From a virus: DNA of 28,001 nucleotides. The stretch is from positions 1 to 28,001 of the IMG/VR virus record IMGVR_UViG_3300049811_000194. One strand, 5' to 3'. Below are positions 18,165 through 28,001 of this stretch, in pieces (the first letter of the stretch is position 1; each line of letters begins with the position of its first letter). The notes below the pieces were generated by a model that ran no database searches, was not told the DNA's origin, and worked only from the letters and a program-made list of their open reading frames with translations. A program made the position numbers and the translations under genes.

Positions 18165-18507
18165 AGTTTATCACCATCGCAAGGGGCTGACCTTTTGGAT
18201 CTGATAATTCTAAGCGCTGCGAGTCTTTCCACTGCATCTGAGCTTTAGCCCAGAATATCGCTGCTGTGAGATTTTTCTGTGCTTGGGTGTAAAGGAATTT
18301 GCAAATCGTGGCGTTAGCTTTAGCGCGGCCGTTTTCGAACTCTTCGAGGTAATGGGTTCTCACGCAATCGCGGCCAATCTTTAGAATGCGCCCGATATCC
18401 TCTTGCGGCACTCCGTACCCTGCGAGCGTCTCGACCATGCTGCGCGACTGCTCCGTAGGCTGATGAGGCGGGCGGCCTCTGAGTTTTTTTGGTTTTTCTT
18501 CTGTCAT
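18136..18507 (-). CDS. terS: Terminase small subunit-like protein
   Basis: This 123-residue protein resembles small terminases that recognise packaging sites. It starts with a basic RGRPP segment (residues about 10-14, AT-hook-like). A helix-turn-helix follows at about 25-60 (YGVPQEDIGRILKIGRDCVR), then a helical oligomerisation segment (ENGRAKANATICKFLYTQAQ) and IFWAKAQMQWKD. Its position immediately before TerL, overlapping it by 29 bases, matches. Its ATG overlaps the methyltransferase stop as ATGA without a clear ribosome-binding site, so translation is likely coupled. Confidence 0.78.
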   Translation of the reverse strand: MTEEKPKKLRGRPPHQPTEQSRSMVETLAGYGVPQEDIGRILKIGRDCVRTHYLEEFENGRAKANATICKFLYTQAQKNLTAAIFWAKAQMQWKDSQRLELSDPKGQPLAMVINFGKKPDSKE

Positions 18508-19703
18508 AAGTTTATTGATTTCGGATCGAAATCCTCCCCGTTTATTTTAATTTTAACATCTTTCCCCGCATCGTTACGGTATTTTATATAACGCTCTAGA
18601 ATGACCTGGCAGGACTTAGGGCTTATCTCCATGCCGTAGCAGATGCGGTCTATCTGGTCGGCTGCGATTAGTGTGGTGCCAGAACCCAAATATGGATCTC
18701 CTATAAACTTATAATCATGAAAATTAATAAGCTCTAAAACCTTTTGAAAAAGTCGAATCGGTTTTTGTGTAGGATGCCCCGTAGATCTATCATGCCCACG
18801 CGCCGCAAAAGCTCCCGTTTGTTTTAATTCTCTAACTATTTGTCTTTTAATTTTTTTTGACACCCAAATAGTTTCAAAATCTGAACCAATCGCCCCATCA
18901 AGTAGCCCAATCTGATTGTCATTGCTTCTTTTATCCCATACAAGCAACGCCCCTTTGTTGCGTTCTGGAATATGTTCAATAAAATAATCTGAGCCGAATA
19001 TAATTTGAAATTTAGAATTCCAATTTGTAAAAATACATTTTATTAAATTTTCATTCCAATCATCACCATCGCCGACTATAGTTCTTTTGTTTTTCCCGTG
19101 CCAAGATGAATCCATTGAAATCCCGTAAGGCGGGTCAGTCAAAATAATATCAATACTTTCTTTTCCAATTAATTTTTTAACATGTTCTACATACGTTGTA
19201 TCCCCGCACATAACCCTATGCGGCCCAAGCTCAATCACATCGCCTATCTTGATGAACGGCTCTTCTGGTAATTCGCCGGGGCCGCCGTCTTCAAATACTT
19301 CGTTTTCTTCCTCAACTGGTGCGAGCTTTAGCAACTCATCGAGGCCCCAGTCTTCTGAGTTGAATTGTAGATCTTCTAGGTTATCTAGTTCGATTTTTAG
19401 ATTTTCGAAATCCCATTCGCTGTCATTCTGCAACTTGTTATCGAGTATGCGGTAGGCTTTCTTCTGAGCTTCCGTCAGCCCAGATATTTTATAGGTCGGC
19501 ACTGTTTTAAGGCCCAGTTTTTTAGCCGCCTCTAGTCTGCCGTGGCCGACTAAAATGATATTGGCCTCGTCAATTACTATGGGCTGATTAAAGCCAAATA
19601 GGTCGATGGAATTAGCTATAAGATTTACCTGCTCATCTGAGTGGACGCGATTATTGAACTGATATGGTATTAGTTGATCTATTTTTAGCTGCTCGATTTT
19701 CAT
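18504..19703 (-). CDS. ParB-like domain fused to a DNA methyltransferase
   Basis: This 399-residue fusion has two parts. Residues about 1-90 form a ParB/Srx-type domain (IDQLIPYQFNNRVHSDEQ, then VGHGRLEAAKKLGL and AYRILDNKL). Residues about 150-375 form a DNA methyltransferase of beta order: catalytic DPPY at 190-193, then HPTQKP at 310-315, and the S-adenosylmethionine site DPYLGSGTT at 336-344. DPPY suggests N6-adenine methylation, though N4-cytosine cannot be excluded. I chose the ATG at 19701-19703, which overlaps the previous stop as TGATG and lies 6 bases from AGAGG; the GTG just upstream is only 3 bases away. It directly precedes the terminase genes. It may mark phage DNA against restriction or affect packaging or late control. 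Confidence 0.9.
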   Translation of the reverse strand: MKIEQLKIDQLIPYQFNNRVHSDEQVNLIANSIDLFGFNQPIVIDEANIILVGHGRLEAAKKLGLKTVPTYKISGLTEAQKKAYRILDNKLQNDSEWDFENLKIELDNLEDLQFNSEDWGLDELLKLAPVEEENEVFEDGGPGELPEEPFIKIGDVIELGPHRVMCGDTTYVEHVKKLIGKESIDIILTDPPYGISMDSSWHGKNKRTIVGDGDDWNENLIKCIFTNWNSKFQIIFGSDYFIEHIPERNKGALLVWDKRSNDNQIGLLDGAIGSDFETIWVSKKIKRQIVRELKQTGAFAARGHDRSTGHPTQKPIRLFQKVLELINFHDYKFIGDPYLGSGTTLIAADQIDRICYGMEISPKSCQVILERYIKYRNDAGKDVKIKINGEDFDPKSINL

Positions 19704-20047
19704 CACGATCCTCTATTCATCTTCTGAGCGCCTTTGCCTGGCCACTTTAAAGTTATCTCTGCATGATTATGCGCTAGGAATCTCCGCAGAAATCCGTTTT
19801 TGGTGCGCGGTGCCAGCTTCTCAAGTGTAGCATCACAACTGTATACCTTGCGAGCGATATCTCTAAGCACTTGCGGGTCTAGTTCCAAGTGTTCGCAAAT
19901 GTACAGAAACGTAAACGGCTTTGTGCTTTTGTTGTCGATCCATTCCATCGCGCTCATTCTGATAGCCCCACGATGAGTAAATATATCGAGCAGAGCGCGT
20001 TCCAGAATTGCGGTAATTAGCGCTTCTTCTGGTGCTTGCACGTTCAA
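19703..20047 (-). CDS. Small protein of unknown function, possible helical DNA-binding type
   Basis: This protein has about 114 residues and starts with TTG (complement of 20045-20047), forming a TTGA overlap with the previous stop; a GTG two codons in is an alternative. The middle has the pattern WIDNKSTKPFTFLYICEHLE then LDPQVLRDIARKVYS, a helix-rich segment seen in conserved small proteins that I cannot name. The C-terminus is basic (RTKNGFLRRFLAHN, KGAQKMNRG). There is one internal Cys pair (ICEH, YSCD). It is sandwiched between a nuclease-like gene and the methyltransferase in a tightly overlapping group, so it may work with one of them. Confidence 0.65.
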   Translation of the reverse strand: MNVQAPEEALITAILERALLDIFTHRGAIRMSAMEWIDNKSTKPFTFLYICEHLELDPQVLRDIARKVYSCDATLEKLAPRTKNGFLRRFLAHNHAEITLKWPGKGAQKMNRGS

Positions 20048-23003: not shown

Positions 23004-23864
23004 ATGGACAACAACAAAAACTTACCAACATTAAATTTAGACGACAGCAAGATCGTTGCGACGCTCAAGGCGACAATTGCAAAGGATCTCACAAGCGAAG
23101 AATTCGATCTTTTCCGGGAGATTTGCCGAGGGACGGGCTTAAATCCTTTCAAACGTGAAATATGGGCGATAAAAAGTAAGAGCTACACAAATAAGCGCGG
23201 CGAGCACGTTGAGGGCAAATTGCAAATTATGACCGGAATAAATGGGTTTTACGAAATTGCCAATAACGATGCAAATTTTGACGGCATAGAAAGTGGCCTA
23301 GTCGGTCCTATGGGCGACCTAGTAAACCAAGCGTACCCCAAACAGGATTGGATCGGAGCGTGGGCGCGGGTCCACTTAAAGAGCCGTAAAGTGCCGGTTG
23401 AATATTGCGTTATGCGTGACGAGTGCGATCAATCCCGCCTCGATCCATACTACCCCGAGCGCGGAATCTGGCGGGTGCGGCCCAGAATCATGACTATGAA
23501 ATGTGCCGAGGCGCTAGCACTACGAAAGGCGCTGCCACAGAAACTAAACTTCTTGTACGTCGAGGAGGAGATTCTTGAGTCGTCGACTGAAGAGCCGATA
23601 AAGATTGAAACGATTGCACCAAAAGCAATAGGAGGCCCGTTCTATTATTCGGGGCGTTCGTTATCTCCAGATCGTCAACCCAAGTTTGACGAGTACATGA
23701 GGAAGAAGAACGCGATTAAGTTCGCCGATGGTGTTTGGAAATCTTCTGAAGAAATAAAGAGCAAGGAAGCTGCCGCCCAATTGATTAGCGAAACCGAAGC
23801 TTTTGAATTAGCAGTAGTCGTTGAAGCTGATGCTATGGAGAAGGAGGCTGCAAGCAATGAGTGA
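23004..23864 (+). CDS. bet: Bet/RecT-type single-strand annealing protein
   Basis: This 286-residue protein matches the Redbeta/RecT annealing family. Residues about 29-58 contain the family-typical run LTSEEFDLFREICRGTGLNP followed by FKREIWAI. Downstream are GKLQIMTGINGFYEIAN, an aromatic strand region (WIGAWARVHLKS), and RPRIMTMKCAEALALRKALP at about 160-180. The C-terminus is acidic and helical, as expected for a segment that contacts partner proteins. It anneals complementary single strands during phage recombination or replication. No Exo-type exonuclease is seen beside it; a Gp157-like protein follows with an 8-base overlap. A GGAGG site lies 4 bases before the ATG. Confidence 0.9.
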   Translation: MDNNKNLPTLNLDDSKIVATLKATIAKDLTSEEFDLFREICRGTGLNPFKREIWAIKSKSYTNKRGEHVEGKLQIMTGINGFYEIANNDANFDGIESGLVGPMGDLVNQAYPKQDWIGAWARVHLKSRKVPVEYCVMRDECDQSRLDPYYPERGIWRVRPRIMTMKCAEALALRKALPQKLNFLYVEEEILESSTEEPIKIETIAPKAIGGPFYYSGRSLSPDRQPKFDEYMRKKNAIKFADGVWKSSEEIKSKEAAAQLISETEAFELAVVVEADAMEKEAASNE

Positions 23865-24336
23865 GCCGCTTTATAAGTTAGCCCAAGAATATGATCGATT
23901 GCTGGCGCTGCTGGACGATTCTGAAACGAATTACGAAACGGCAGTCCTTGAGATAGAAAAACTTCAAGCTGAAATGTCGGCCAAGTTCGAAGCGTTGCTC
24001 AAGGTGCTGTTCTGGAAGGAATCAATGGTTGAGCAAGTTGACGCTGAGATTAAACGCCTTCAAATTCGCAAACAGTCGATTGAAAACCGTTGCGAGTGGA
24101 TTAGGTGGTATCTTGGCAAGAACCTAGGCCCTGGCAACACGTTCGAATGTGCAATTGGTAAAATGAGCTGGCGCAAGTCGGAAGTAGTCGAGCGAGTAAG
24201 CGACGATCCACTACTGCCGGAATATGAGCGCGTAAAGGTCGAGCCGAACAAGGAAGCGATTAAACGTGACTTGAAAGCTGGCCTAGTTGTGCCTGGTTGG
24301 GTTCTGCAACAGCGAATGAATTTACAAATTAAGTAG
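23857..24336 (+). CDS. Siphovirus Gp157-like protein
   Basis: This protein has 159 residues counted from the ATG at 23857, which has a GGAGG site 9 bases upstream; a longer TTG reading is not supported. The sequence follows the Gp157 family outline: LYKLAQEYDRLLALLDD, a long helical pair through EIKRLQIRKQSIENRCEW (residues about 35-90), IRWYLGKNL, then the strand IGKMSWRKSEVVERV and the closing motif LPEYERVKVEPNKEAIKRDL with GLVVPGWVL. In phage of Gram-positive hosts this family has been linked to resistance to phage infection and is usually found with recombination genes. It overlaps Bet by 8 bases. Its molecular activity is not known. Confidence 0.85.
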   Translation: MSEPLYKLAQEYDRLLALLDDSETNYETAVLEIEKLQAEMSAKFEALLKVLFWKESMVEQVDAEIKRLQIRKQSIENRCEWIRWYLGKNLGPGNTFECAIGKMSWRKSEVVERVSDDPLLPEYERVKVEPNKEAIKRDLKAGLVVPGWVLQQRMNLQIK

Positions 24337-24343
24337 GAATTAT

Positions 24344-24961
24344 ATGAAATTATCAATATTGCTTGCCGCATCAATTCTATCCTCGGTCGCAATGGCCGAG
24401 CCGATTAAGGTTCAGCCGATTAGGTTTTTAGGGTCGGACGCCCCAAGTCGAGCGTACACCCGAGAAGTTTTAAACGGAATGGAGGCTAAGTTTGCTGAGG
24501 CTGGCGTAAACGTCAAAGCAAAGCGCATCAAAACGCACATTGATCCGTTTAAAATTGCGACAACTTTAGAGAATCGGCTGCAATCGTTTCGCAAGCGGGA
24601 AGGCTGGGCGCTGCGACGTGGCTATGATGATCCGAATGAGTTGAAGCTGGCATTTTCCGGAAGAGCCGATCAACAATGGCTGTACGGCTACGCGAATTCA
24701 ACAAATTGCTATCAGCGCGGGTGCTCACCTTTTGCGCTGGCCGCCATAGCCGAGACAAACGCTGCTGGAGAGTCGCGCTATGCCCAATCGGTAATAGCTG
24801 CAACGCATGAAACAGCGCACTTGCTAGGCGCGAATCATATCGACTCGTATCCGAACGTCATGCACGGAAATGCAATGTCCTACGCAATGCCGATCAATCT
24901 GCCGTGGGCACCGAATACGGTGTTGATCATGCAAAGCTGGCAATTGCGCGGCGCTAAATAA
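24344..24961 (+). CDS. Secreted metzincin-type zinc metallopeptidase
   Basis: This 205-residue protein starts with a clean Sec signal peptide (MKLSILLAASILSSVAMA, cleavage before EP). The C-terminal part has the extended zinc site HETAHLLGANH at residues 155-165 (His155, Glu156, His159, His165), the metzincin form HExxHxxGxxH. A candidate Met-turn follows (NVMHGNAMSYAM, Met173 or Met178). Two cysteines (NCYQRGC) suggest a disulfide in the periplasm or outside the cell. At about 185 mature residues it is small for the class. It sits 7 bases after the Gp157-like gene with an AGGA site, inside a recombination operon, which is unusual. Substrate unknown: a host surface or periplasmic protein is likely. 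Confidence 0.87.
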   Translation: MKLSILLAASILSSVAMAEPIKVQPIRFLGSDAPSRAYTREVLNGMEAKFAEAGVNVKAKRIKTHIDPFKIATTLENRLQSFRKREGWALRRGYDDPNELKLAFSGRADQQWLYGYANSTNCYQRGCSPFALAAIAETNAAGESRYAQSVIAATHETAHLLGANHIDSYPNVMHGNAMSYAMPINLPWAPNTVLIMQSWQLRGAK

Positions 24962-25031
24962 AATCTCAATCTGAGACCTGACGGCGGCAGGAGATGTACC
25001 GCCACTTTAACTTTAAATCGTGAGGGGAAAA

Positions 25032-25226
25032 ATGGACACGACGATAAGAAAAAGCTACGAGGTACCTAAGTCTGAGCGAATCGCCGAAGCGCTGTTGGGA
25101 CGCTACGCGCGCGAGATTTTGGAGCTAATGCAAAAACCTAAATTGACGCCGGAAGAATTGCGGCGACTGCCCGAGCTGCGCGAATTCGCGCGGCTGCACA
25201 AAATGTTTATGTCTAAACACGTTTAG
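25032..25226 (+). CDS. Small charged protein of unknown function
   Basis: This 64-residue protein starts at the ATG 25032-25034 with GAGGGG 4-5 bases upstream; a GTG at 25020 is less likely. The sequence is helical and charged (SERIAEALLGRYAREILELM, PEELRRLPELREFARLHKMF). It has no signal peptide, membrane segment or cysteine. It lies between the exported protease and a lipoprotein gene, both of which have strong ribosome-binding sites. The repeated Glu-Leu-Arg pattern suggests a helical hairpin that binds another protein. The family is unknown. Confidence 0.65.
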   Translation: MDTTIRKSYEVPKSERIAEALLGRYAREILELMQKPKLTPEELRRLPELREFARLHKMFMSKHV

Positions 25227-25235
25227 GAGGATGCC

Positions 25236-25484
25236 ATGATAGCTAAAATTGTAATTCAAGTTGGAATTGCTTGCGGCTTGATTGCTGCGGCTCTGAATCT
25301 AGGCGGGTGCGCTGTGTTTAATCCTAACGGGTTCGAATTCGGCGCTAAGGCTGGAATGTATGCGGTCGATGAGCGACACGACGAGTCGCGTACCAACGCC
25401 AACAGAAAGCCTATGCTGTGTTCGTTGTGGGGATCGCTTGCAATGTGTAACCAAAATCAGGGAGGTGAAGTACATGGAAGCTGA
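25236..25484 (+). CDS. Small lipoprotein
   Basis: This 82-residue protein has a lipoprotein signal: a hydrophobic stretch (residues 3-22) and a lipobox-like NLGGC with Cys25 as the lipidated residue. The mature part is about 58 residues, with polar turns and a Cys pair (LCSLWGSLAMC) near the end that may form a disulfide. A strong AGGAGG site precedes the ATG. Small phage lipoproteins such as Llp and Cor block receptors to stop superinfection, and o-spanins are another class; this one lies in the early region beside an exported protease, which favours an envelope-altering role over lysis. It overlaps the next gene by 11 bases. Confidence 0.72.
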   Translation: MIAKIVIQVGIACGLIAAALNLGGCAVFNPNGFEFGAKAGMYAVDERHDESRTNANRKPMLCSLWGSLAMCNQNQGGEVHGS

Positions 25485-25602
25485 ATCATTTTTCACAATT
25501 TACAAATTGTGGTGGTGCCTAGTGTACAACCTAATGATGATCGGTTTTGTGACTGCTCTTGTAGCAATTACCGACACGTTCAAAGCAGCAAATTTGTTGT
25601 AA
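25474..25602 (+). CDS. 42-residue single-pass membrane peptide
   Basis: The ATG at 25474 follows a GGAGGTG site by about 6 bases inside the lipoprotein gene. The product is mostly one hydrophobic segment (residues about 12-33: WWCLVYNLMMIGFVTALVAI) with polar ends (MEAESFF and DTFKAANLL). A longer frame begins upstream but has no supporting start. It is a likely membrane partner of the adjacent lipoprotein or a small envelope modulator. Family unknown; assignment rests on the start signal and hydrophobicity. Confidence 0.6.
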   Translation: MEAESFFTIYKLWWCLVYNLMMIGFVTALVAITDTFKAANLL

Positions 25603-25936: not shown

Positions 25937-25964
25937 GCCGTGAGCCTTAATCACGGCAATTTTT
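25937..25964 (+). terminator. Intrinsic terminator before the RNA ligase gene
   Basis: GCCGTGA (25937-25943) and TCACGGC (25951-25957) form a perfect 7-bp stem with a 7-base loop, followed by AATTTTT. It separates the envelope/microprotein genes from the RNA ligase cassette. Confidence 0.7.
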
Positions 25965-25977
25965 AAAGGAATTACAA

Positions 25978-26586
25978 ATGAAAAAAATGCCTTGTTTATT
26001 CGAAAGAGAATTCCACGGGAAAGGCTCCTTCACTTTGCTGAAAACAATTACTCCTGGTTGTGAGTGGGTAGAGGAAGGGTTGGGCGTTGCTACGCGTAAA
26101 TGGGATGGTACCGCCGTCATGTTCGACGGCGCACGCTGGTATCAGCGATACGATGCGAAATCCGGGAATCCACCGCTTTATTGCTTCATTGCTTGCGAAC
26201 CTGAGCGAGATCCGATTACAGGCCATTGGCCAGGGTGGACTCCTGTGAATATGGGCAATGAATCGGCGTATATTCGCGAAGCTATTCAGCACTATGAAGC
26301 ATTCATCGGTGATTCTGGACTTTGTCGAGAACGCGGCACCTTTGAGGCGTGCGGTCCAAAGATCAACAGTAATCCTGAGAAGCTCGCGGAGCATAGATTA
26401 TTCAAGCATGGAAATAGTATTTTAGATTGCCCGCGAGATTTTGAAGGGATCAAACAGTTTTTAACGGAAACAATGATTGAGGGCGTTGTCTTTCATCATC
26501 CCGCATGCGGCGCACATCAATTTCCAATGTGTAAAATCCGCCGTGCTGATTTTGCGTTGCCGTGGGGAAAACATGGCAGAAATTAG
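25978..26586 (+). CDS. RNA ligase, DUF5565 (RNA ligase 1) family
   Basis: This 202-residue protein is a nucleotidyltransferase-type ligase. Motif I is RKWDGTAV with the adenylated Lys41; QRYDAKSG follows near 57, and the family signature GHWPGW at 82-87. Motif III is TFEACGPK (Glu123), followed by INSNPEKLAEHRLFKHG. Motif IV is IEGVVFHH (Glu168) and motif V is CKIRR (Lys186). The set and spacing match the DUF5565 RNA ligase family. It would seal broken RNA ends, for example tRNA cut by a host nuclease. It has an AAAGGA site 7 bases before the ATG and starts a new unit after a terminator. A short protein begins inside its end. Confidence 0.9.
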   Translation: MKKMPCLFEREFHGKGSFTLLKTITPGCEWVEEGLGVATRKWDGTAVMFDGARWYQRYDAKSGNPPLYCFIACEPERDPITGHWPGWTPVNMGNESAYIREAIQHYEAFIGDSGLCRERGTFEACGPKINSNPEKLAEHRLFKHGNSILDCPRDFEGIKQFLTETMIEGVVFHHPACGAHQFPMCKIRRADFALPWGKHGRN

Positions 26587-27521: not shown

Positions 27522-28001
27522 ATGATTAATAAAATAACCGCAGAACAAGAAGAGCTTATTCCTAAACTCTACAAAGAATATTTGGATATAGGGTTATCAA
27601 CTGAGCCCATTAATCTCGGCGAAATGAAATCCGTCATCGACGAGTGGTATAGGCATATCAAACAGAAGACGCCAGTATATTTTGTATTAAGCTCCCCTGC
27701 TATGTGTTCGATTTTTTGCGGTTTATTTTTGAGCGGTAATTCGCACTCGCAGTTGGGCTCGCAGTTGGACTCGCAGTTGGAATCGCAGTTGGAATCGCAG
27801 TTGTACTCGCAGTTGCACTCGCAGTTGGACTCGCAGTCGCACTCGCAGTTGTACTCGCAGTTGCGCTCGCAGTTGTACTCGCAGTTGGAATCGCAGTTGG
27901 AATCGCAGTTGGAATCGCAGTTGGAATCGCAGTTGTACTCGCAGTTGCACTCGCAGTTGGACTCGCAGTCGCACTCGCAGTTGTACTCGCAGTTGCGCTC
28001 G
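27522..28001 (+). CDS. DUF6745-like protein with tandem Ser-Gln-Leu-x repeats (3' end outside window)
   Basis: A frame opens at the ATG 27522 (GGAGG site 5 bases away) and stays open for 160 codons to the window edge. Residues about 1-72 form a small domain (ITAEQEELIPKLYKEYLDIG then LSTEPINLGEM and YFVLSSPAMCSIFCG) that resembles the start of DUF6745 proteins. From residue 74 on it is made of SQLx units, each 12 bp (TCGCAGTTG plus a variable codon). The variable residue cycles through G, D, E, Y, H and R. It may be a repeat scaffold that binds protein or RNA; its C-terminal part is unseen. The minus-strand reading of the array is a shadow. Confidence 0.82.
   Translation, partial: MINKITAEQEELIPKLYKEYLDIGLSTEPINLGEMKSVIDEWYRHIKQKTPVYFVLSSPAMCSIFCGLFLSGNSHSQLGSQLDSQLESQLESQLYSQLHSQLDSQSHSQLYSQLRSQLYSQLESQLESQLESQLESQLYSQLHSQLDSQSHSQLYSQLRS
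27747..28001 (+). repeat. 12-bp tandem repeat array with a 132-bp higher-order copy
   Basis: There are 21 full units of TCGCAGTTGNNN and a partial one up to the window edge. Bases 27771-27869 are repeated exactly at 27903-28001, a shift of 132 bp (11 units), which indicates a recent block duplication. Two units carry TCGCAGTCG (Leu to Ser) at the same place in each block. Length changes always add or remove four residues, keeping the frame. Confidence 0.92.

Follow-up and report, generated by a model that had tools for sequence, protein, structure and literature searches.

The open reading frame (ORF) at positions 24344-24961 on the plus strand of a 28,001-base virus record from IMG/VR (the window, meaning the whole stretch analysed) encodes a 205-residue protein, here labelled P0001. 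On balance, this protein is probably an exported zinc endopeptidase without a prodomain, carried in an accessory cassette and cutting proteins of the host envelope, with lysis or virion release as its likeliest benefit. The contig carries phage genes, among them those for a portal, a terminase, a major capsid protein, an internal protein with a transglycosylase domain and a DNA methyltransferase. The reading draws on computed properties of the gene and its product, namely the active-site motif, the signal peptide, the coupling to an operon, the predicted fold, membership in a phage gene family and a position that changes among relatives. An initial annotation of the same DNA had given the coordinates, the length and the Glu156 numbering correctly, as a second reading of the ORF confirmed, and the signal peptide, complete zinc site and Met-turn that it had described are all present.

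P0001 begins with MKLSILLAASILSSVAMA followed by EPIK, and this N-terminus has the n-h-c layout of a signal peptide of 18 residues with an AxA cleavage site, cut between AMA and E. By these sequence criteria, export to the periplasm is very likely. The zinc site reads H155 E156 T A H159 L L G162 A N H165, in agreement with the metzincin pattern HExxHxxGxxH, and M173 stands at +8 from the third histidine, where its position in the sequence suggests the Met-turn. The back-translated pattern HEx[AG]HxxGxxH-x7-M has a single match in the window, and none of 100 dinucleotide-preserving shuffles contained it. H155, E156, H159, G162 and H165 are invariant in an alignment of 24 rows, which were picked partly by this motif; the Met173 column is nearly invariant, with most rows picked by this His-Met spacing. 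Zinc-dependent catalysis by P0001 is very likely.

An AlphaFold2 model built with the 24-row alignment reached a predicted local distance difference test score (pLDDT) of 79.1 and a predicted template modelling score (pTM) of 0.79, compared with 37.9 and 0.30 for a single-sequence model, which was not used. When the former was searched with Foldseek, ADAM8, ADAMTS5, TACE, profragilysin and snake-venom proteases led the matches (best E 5.7e-6, probability 1.00), and VIA-align gave a Z of 15.3 against ADAM8 over 173 residues at 3.4 A, the best fifty entries being nearly all adamalysin or ADAM domains. Comparison with structure databases thus bears out the metzincin fold for the predicted model. 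Comparison with M10 and M12 proteases supports kinship as far as the fold is concerned, with ADAM/adamalysin domains first, but not by family cut-offs: P0001 alone scored 18.5 bits against 27 for Pfam Reprolysin_5 (PF13688), 14.6 against 24 for Peptidase_M10 and 14 against 190.7 for the fragilysin equivalog TIGR03935. The best E in a PDB sequence search was 0.052, and PHROGs contained no match at E<=1. As modelled, P0001 is a metzincin with a catalytic domain of the adamalysin/ADAM type; as it falls short of the formal thresholds of the M12B and fragilysin models, it is classed no further than as a metzincin.

ADAMs and fragilysin are held latent by a prodomain. In the P0001 model the first beta-strand begins at residue 21, right behind the signal peptide of about 18 residues, so that no room is left for a prodomain, and no inhibitory N-terminal prodomain of the fragilysin or M12B kind was found. 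P0001 resembles the adamalysin/ADAM domains (M12B; PDB 4dd8, 1iag and TACE) in its predicted fold over about 173-187 residues, its HExxHxxGxxH site and the size of its catalytic domain; however, identity is 12-13%, prodomain and disintegrin parts are absent, and the gene is encoded by a bacteriophage. Met-turn spacers of M12B enzymes are longer than 8 residues, whereas P0001 has its Met at +8 and no Asp directly after the third histidine (H165 I166 D167), and it does not qualify as M12B. Fragilysin (M10C; TIGR03935) shares HxLGANHxD, the Met at +8 (in a phmmer alignment) and an ADAM-like catalytic fold with P0001, but P0001 differs in lacking the N-terminal prodomain and in being a phage gene.

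Sequence comparison indicates that at least five further uncultivated phage contigs share the undescribed gene family of P0001. These relatives came from motif-guided scans of IMG/VR, and because the loci had been chosen by the motif, its 19 residues were masked when kinship was assessed. In leave-one-out tests, each of the six phage members (6/6) ranked first with a profile of the other five, at E values of 8.4e-9 for P0001, 4.5e-11 for L179, 3.3e-10 for L193, 2.7e-7 for L181, 5.5e-5 for L186 and 1.8e-4 for L178. The best of 553 decoys, which included phage matrixin-like proteins, reached E values of 5-41 (41 in the P0001 test). L183 is a probable seventh member (E 0.0026). As a masked single query, P0001 found L178 as its sole significant match (E 0.002), and the family therefore rests on the profile. 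The phmmer scores were 47.7 bits for L178 and 36.7 bits for L181. Pfam thresholds for Reprolysin_5 and/or Reprolysin_3 were passed by L178, L179 and L181, with 29-32 bits on Reprolysin_5, and signal peptides recur in L178 (cut AVA-EL), L181 (ALA-QR) and L186 despite divergence to 21-27% identity.

Other searches returned little. Peptide-pattern searches found no relatives of P0001 in viral or genome contigs; tblastn with P0001 gave no match in phage records (even at E=10) or plasmids, and tblastn with P0001, L178 and L181 gave none in 50,697 phage records. The five relatives L178, L181, L179, L193 and L186 had no match with annotated function in PHROGs. The best viral structure match to the P0001 model (E 1.1e-5) was A0A8E4XY18 of Maribacter phage Colly_1, one of the phage proteins annotated as matrixin/M10 that are, like P0001, small phage metzincins; its identity to P0001 is 14%, however, and matrixin-like ORFs from IMG/VR act as decoys once the motif is masked. 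Bacterial lipoproteins of Binatota/Myxococcota (L143, L151, L160) were rejected as homologues, as their support disappeared with the motif masked, leaving superfamily kinship only; a profile search of 148 and 369 genomes yielded motif-level matches only, bar the genome previously found to contain L151. A tree joining nine viral sequences (84/78 support) had very long branches and was not relied on. P0001 belongs to a recurrent phage family, apparently without a name so far, which is part of a larger group of phage metzincins that has received little study.

In the window, the protease gene lies in a recombination operon, as the initial annotation had stated: genes for RecT and a Gp157-like protein overlap by 8 nt, and the protease start follows 7 nt past the end of the latter. 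The relatives keep the gene elsewhere. Two contigs, G523 (33 kb) and G525 (35 kb), share synteny with the window phage, with terminases 35-46% identical and matches in portal, capsid and tail module. In G523, the protease gene follows an internal transglycosylase protein and a 90-residue transmembrane (TM) protein, overlapping the TM gene by 8 nt and closing the late operon; in G525, it is one of several small consecutive genes that are presumably early. Because these two phages are syntenic with the window and yet place the gene differently, the protease gene behaves as a mobile accessory gene. The gene overlaps the terminase start in L178, whose contig encodes a RecT 55% identical to that of the window over 49 residues, and overlaps a terminase-like gene behind structural-type genes in G527; in G526 a nuclease-like gene precedes the array of small genes that contains it. 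The position beside Gp157, once regarded as unexpected, is consequently not meaningful in itself, and as position is not conserved among relatives, the timing of expression cannot be read from the locus. Within the L178 terminase ORF (L178:246-2705) there is also an insert resembling an intein, and the same stretch contains an HNH-like ORF (L178:1376-2209) in antisense orientation.

Short-spacer metzincin ORFs were found by a pattern scan in at least 120 IMG/VR contigs, all of them decoded as open frames. An N-terminal hydrophobic segment is present in 83 of the 105 phage short-spacer metzincins of 120-320 residues, compared with 29 of 264 control ORFs. The remark that such proteases are not standard phage genes holds in that PHROGs and cultured phages gave no match to the members searched, but it needs qualifying in view of this number of contigs, most of whose proteins look exported. 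A peptidoglycan-binding/Amidase_2-type endolysin is encoded near an exported matrixin on the same strand in 17 contigs (L013, L023, L027, L034, L051, L053, L056, L058, L065, L067, L069, L091, L094, L096, L103, L110 and L121), immediately upstream in 16 of the 17; some are near-duplicates, and the matrixins form a single sub-family and are treated as a single association. On one strand, these contigs share the order of a small gene encoding 88-97 residues, the endolysin and an exported matrixin-like metzincin of about 180 residues, an arrangement that from sequence resembles a protease-containing lysis cassette. One endolysin-linked matrixin was searched and had no match in cultured-phage records. 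A general tie of phage metzincins to membrane-protein neighbours was unconvincing (TM-like genes immediately upstream in 13/45 and immediately downstream in 11/62, with a background of 224/1259). Two metzincins about 1.5 kb apart occur in G528 (L212:16270-16968 and L212:18495-18917), which differ in Met-turn spacer, short in one and longer in the other, and the one with the longer spacer passes Pfam Reprolysin (M12B). A terminase large-subunit ORF at L002:1631-4219 appears to be interrupted in frame by an intein at its Walker A motif.

The nearest experimental parallel is Mtz of Listeria, a secreted metzincin of phage origin that cleaves the lipoprotein Tim (PMC8235301). Mtz is located downstream of holin-lysin in Listeria prophages, and together with Tim it sensitises cells to phage lysis, raising virion release about five-fold (PMC8235301). 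P0001 is likewise a phage metzincin, predicted to be secreted, with a probable Met-turn and a putative lipoprotein gene nearby. Mtz differs in its Gram-positive host, its consistent pairing with Tim and its CI/Cro switch. The literature searched on phage matrixins, reprolysins and protease-based exclusion yielded nothing beyond this study.

P0001 would be translated along with RecT and Gp157 and then either cross into the periplasm of the infected cell by the Sec route or escape when the cell lyses. As folding there would need no prodomain, the enzyme should be active immediately. The mature protease would cut one or more host proteins, its substrate likely being one or several envelope proteins, and an envelope weakened or remodelled in this way would allow lysis and virion release to work better. 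Help with lysis or egress is put forward tentatively, on the strength of the Amidase_2-adjacent exported matrixins of another phage group and the Listeria precedent. A role other than lysis, egress, receptor removal or superinfection exclusion is doubtful, though it deserves some weight.

Several observations speak against the proposal of an exported protease that aids lysis. The window gene belongs to a recombination operon, presumed early, rather than to a lysis cassette, and the relatives indicate no single role, their genes lying in accessory or early arrays in G525 and G526, at the terminase in L178 and G527, and last in the late operon of G523. The endolysin-linked matrixins are a different sub-family, from a different phage group, than P0001. 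The rows of the alignment behind the model were selected in part by the motif, the model is less sure centrally (pLDDT 64-73 at residues 61-130), and L179 has no clear signal peptide.

Lysis help and receptor removal would both work by the cutting of envelope proteins; what separates them is when this happens and which substrate is cut. For receptor removal, an early protease would cut the receptor of its own phage or of competitors at the periplasm or cell surface, so that no further adsorption occurs and progeny are not trapped on debris. Such superinfection exclusion is possible but somewhat unlikely. It accords with the RecT/Gp157 operon, the accessory placement in G525 and G526, and the export and missing prodomain of P0001, but not with the late or terminase-linked placement in G523, L178 and G527, and no phage protease in such a role was found in the literature searched. 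A secreted protease of bacterial derivation, kept for the benefit of the host as a conversion factor or as a public good that degrades proteins outside the cell, is improbable. Small exported metzincins do occur in bacterial chromosomes (L143, L151, L160), and integrase matches in G527 and G529 suggest that some carriers may be temperate; against this, searches of the window, G523 and G525 (records that may be incomplete) gave no match to a tyrosine integrase, and the gene sits inside a phage operon, where a scan found no promoter-like site of its own directly upstream. More improbable still is a pair of the Listeria kind, in which P0001 would act on the phage lipoprotein encoded two genes downstream in the same operon and free a factor that weakens the cell wall. 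Cleavage of Tim by Mtz (PMC8235301) is its model; nevertheless the window lipoprotein has just 82 residues, and in G523 its homologue and the TM partner lie about 7 kb from the protease on the opposite strand, a separation at odds with Mtz-Tim-type pairing that rules out a fixed partnership with the lipoprotein and speaks against a protease-inhibitor pair. A decayed, non-catalytic metzincin retained as a binding protein is very improbable, since the three histidines, Glu156, Gly162 and Met173 are all intact and the Ala at residue 158 in place of the usual Gly, which with the sub-threshold Pfam scores of P0001 alone would favour decay, is also found in L181 and L186.

The features of the gene and its surroundings are collected in Table 1. 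The phrog_253 label of the Gp157-like protein is Mu Gam-like end protection. Small envelope proteins had been noted downstream of the protease, and this is borne out for the lipobox protein and the single-TM protein but not for the intervening ORF, which looks soluble. By blastp, the lipoprotein is 44% identical over 48 residues to L203:17728-17928 of G523, and the pair of lipoprotein and short TM protein (window 25236-25602; L203:17565-17928) is common to the two related phages. Elsewhere in the window, an RNA-ligase-like protein (25978-26586; phrog_14301, E 2e-60) has its nearest phage homologues in mycobacteriophages and a large-genome Burkholderia phage, and a ParB-like nuclease domain fused to a DNA methyltransferase (18504-19706) adjoins the terminase genes and is retained in G525. 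About 21 copies of a 12-bp unit, which encode SQLx tetrapeptide repeats, fill 27745-27995 and reach the contig end; G523 has a different low-complexity repeat stretch at L203:18738-19636.

Table 1. Features of the protease gene and its operon in the window
Feature	Position	Strand	Basis
Sec/signal peptidase I (SPase I) signal peptide, 18 residues, MKLSILLAASILSSVAMA before EP	24344..24397	+	sequence; AxA-x site; top 12-residue hydrophobicity 2.3
Mature metzincin, 187 residues, catalytic domain alone, without prodomain	24398..24958	+	AlphaFold2 model; ADAM/adamalysin fold
Zinc-binding site HETAHLLGANH, residues 155-165	24806..24838	+	motif in sequence
Met173, probable Met-turn methionine, +8 from third His	24860..24862	+	nearly invariant column in 24-row alignment
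Cys122-x4-Cys127, possible disulphide ahead of active-site helix	24707..24724	+	sequence, and periplasmic location suggested by the signal peptide
RecT/Bet-like single-strand annealing protein, first gene of the operon	23004..23864	+	PF03837 91 bits; phrog_2780 E=4.5e-26
Gp157-like protein (Sipho_Gp157), directly 5' of protease gene	23857..24336	+	PF05565 92 bits; phrog_253 E=1.1e-28
68-residue ORF, function unassigned, looks soluble, downstream of protease	25020..25226	+	no significant family in library searches
Putative small lipoprotein, 82 residues, LGGC lipobox	25236..25484	+	kept in related contig G523
42-residue single-TM ORF, overlaps lipoprotein gene	25474..25602	+	sequence; same pair order in G523
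Terminator-like hairpin 3' of operon	25937..25957	+	consensus match only; such sites not above chance in region

Known phage tools include lysins against the cell wall, spanins or disruptins against the outer membrane, and binding proteins that prevent superinfection. Exported phage proteases have hardly been described, Mtz being the only experimental precedent found in the literature searched. The ADAM-like family, the more than 100 phage contigs with small metzincins and the endolysin-adjacent group suggest that the cutting of envelope proteins is a common, overlooked tool of phages. The family could also yield small proteases that are free of a prodomain. As a speculative extension, P0001 and its relatives might form a family of prodomain-less, ADAM-like phage "sheddases", absent from phage family databases and encoded at early, terminase-linked or late loci, which cut outer-membrane or periplasmic proteins and so clear receptors or unfasten the envelope for lysis. 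If this is true, the shedding of bacterial surface proteins by proteolysis would be a strategy general to phages.
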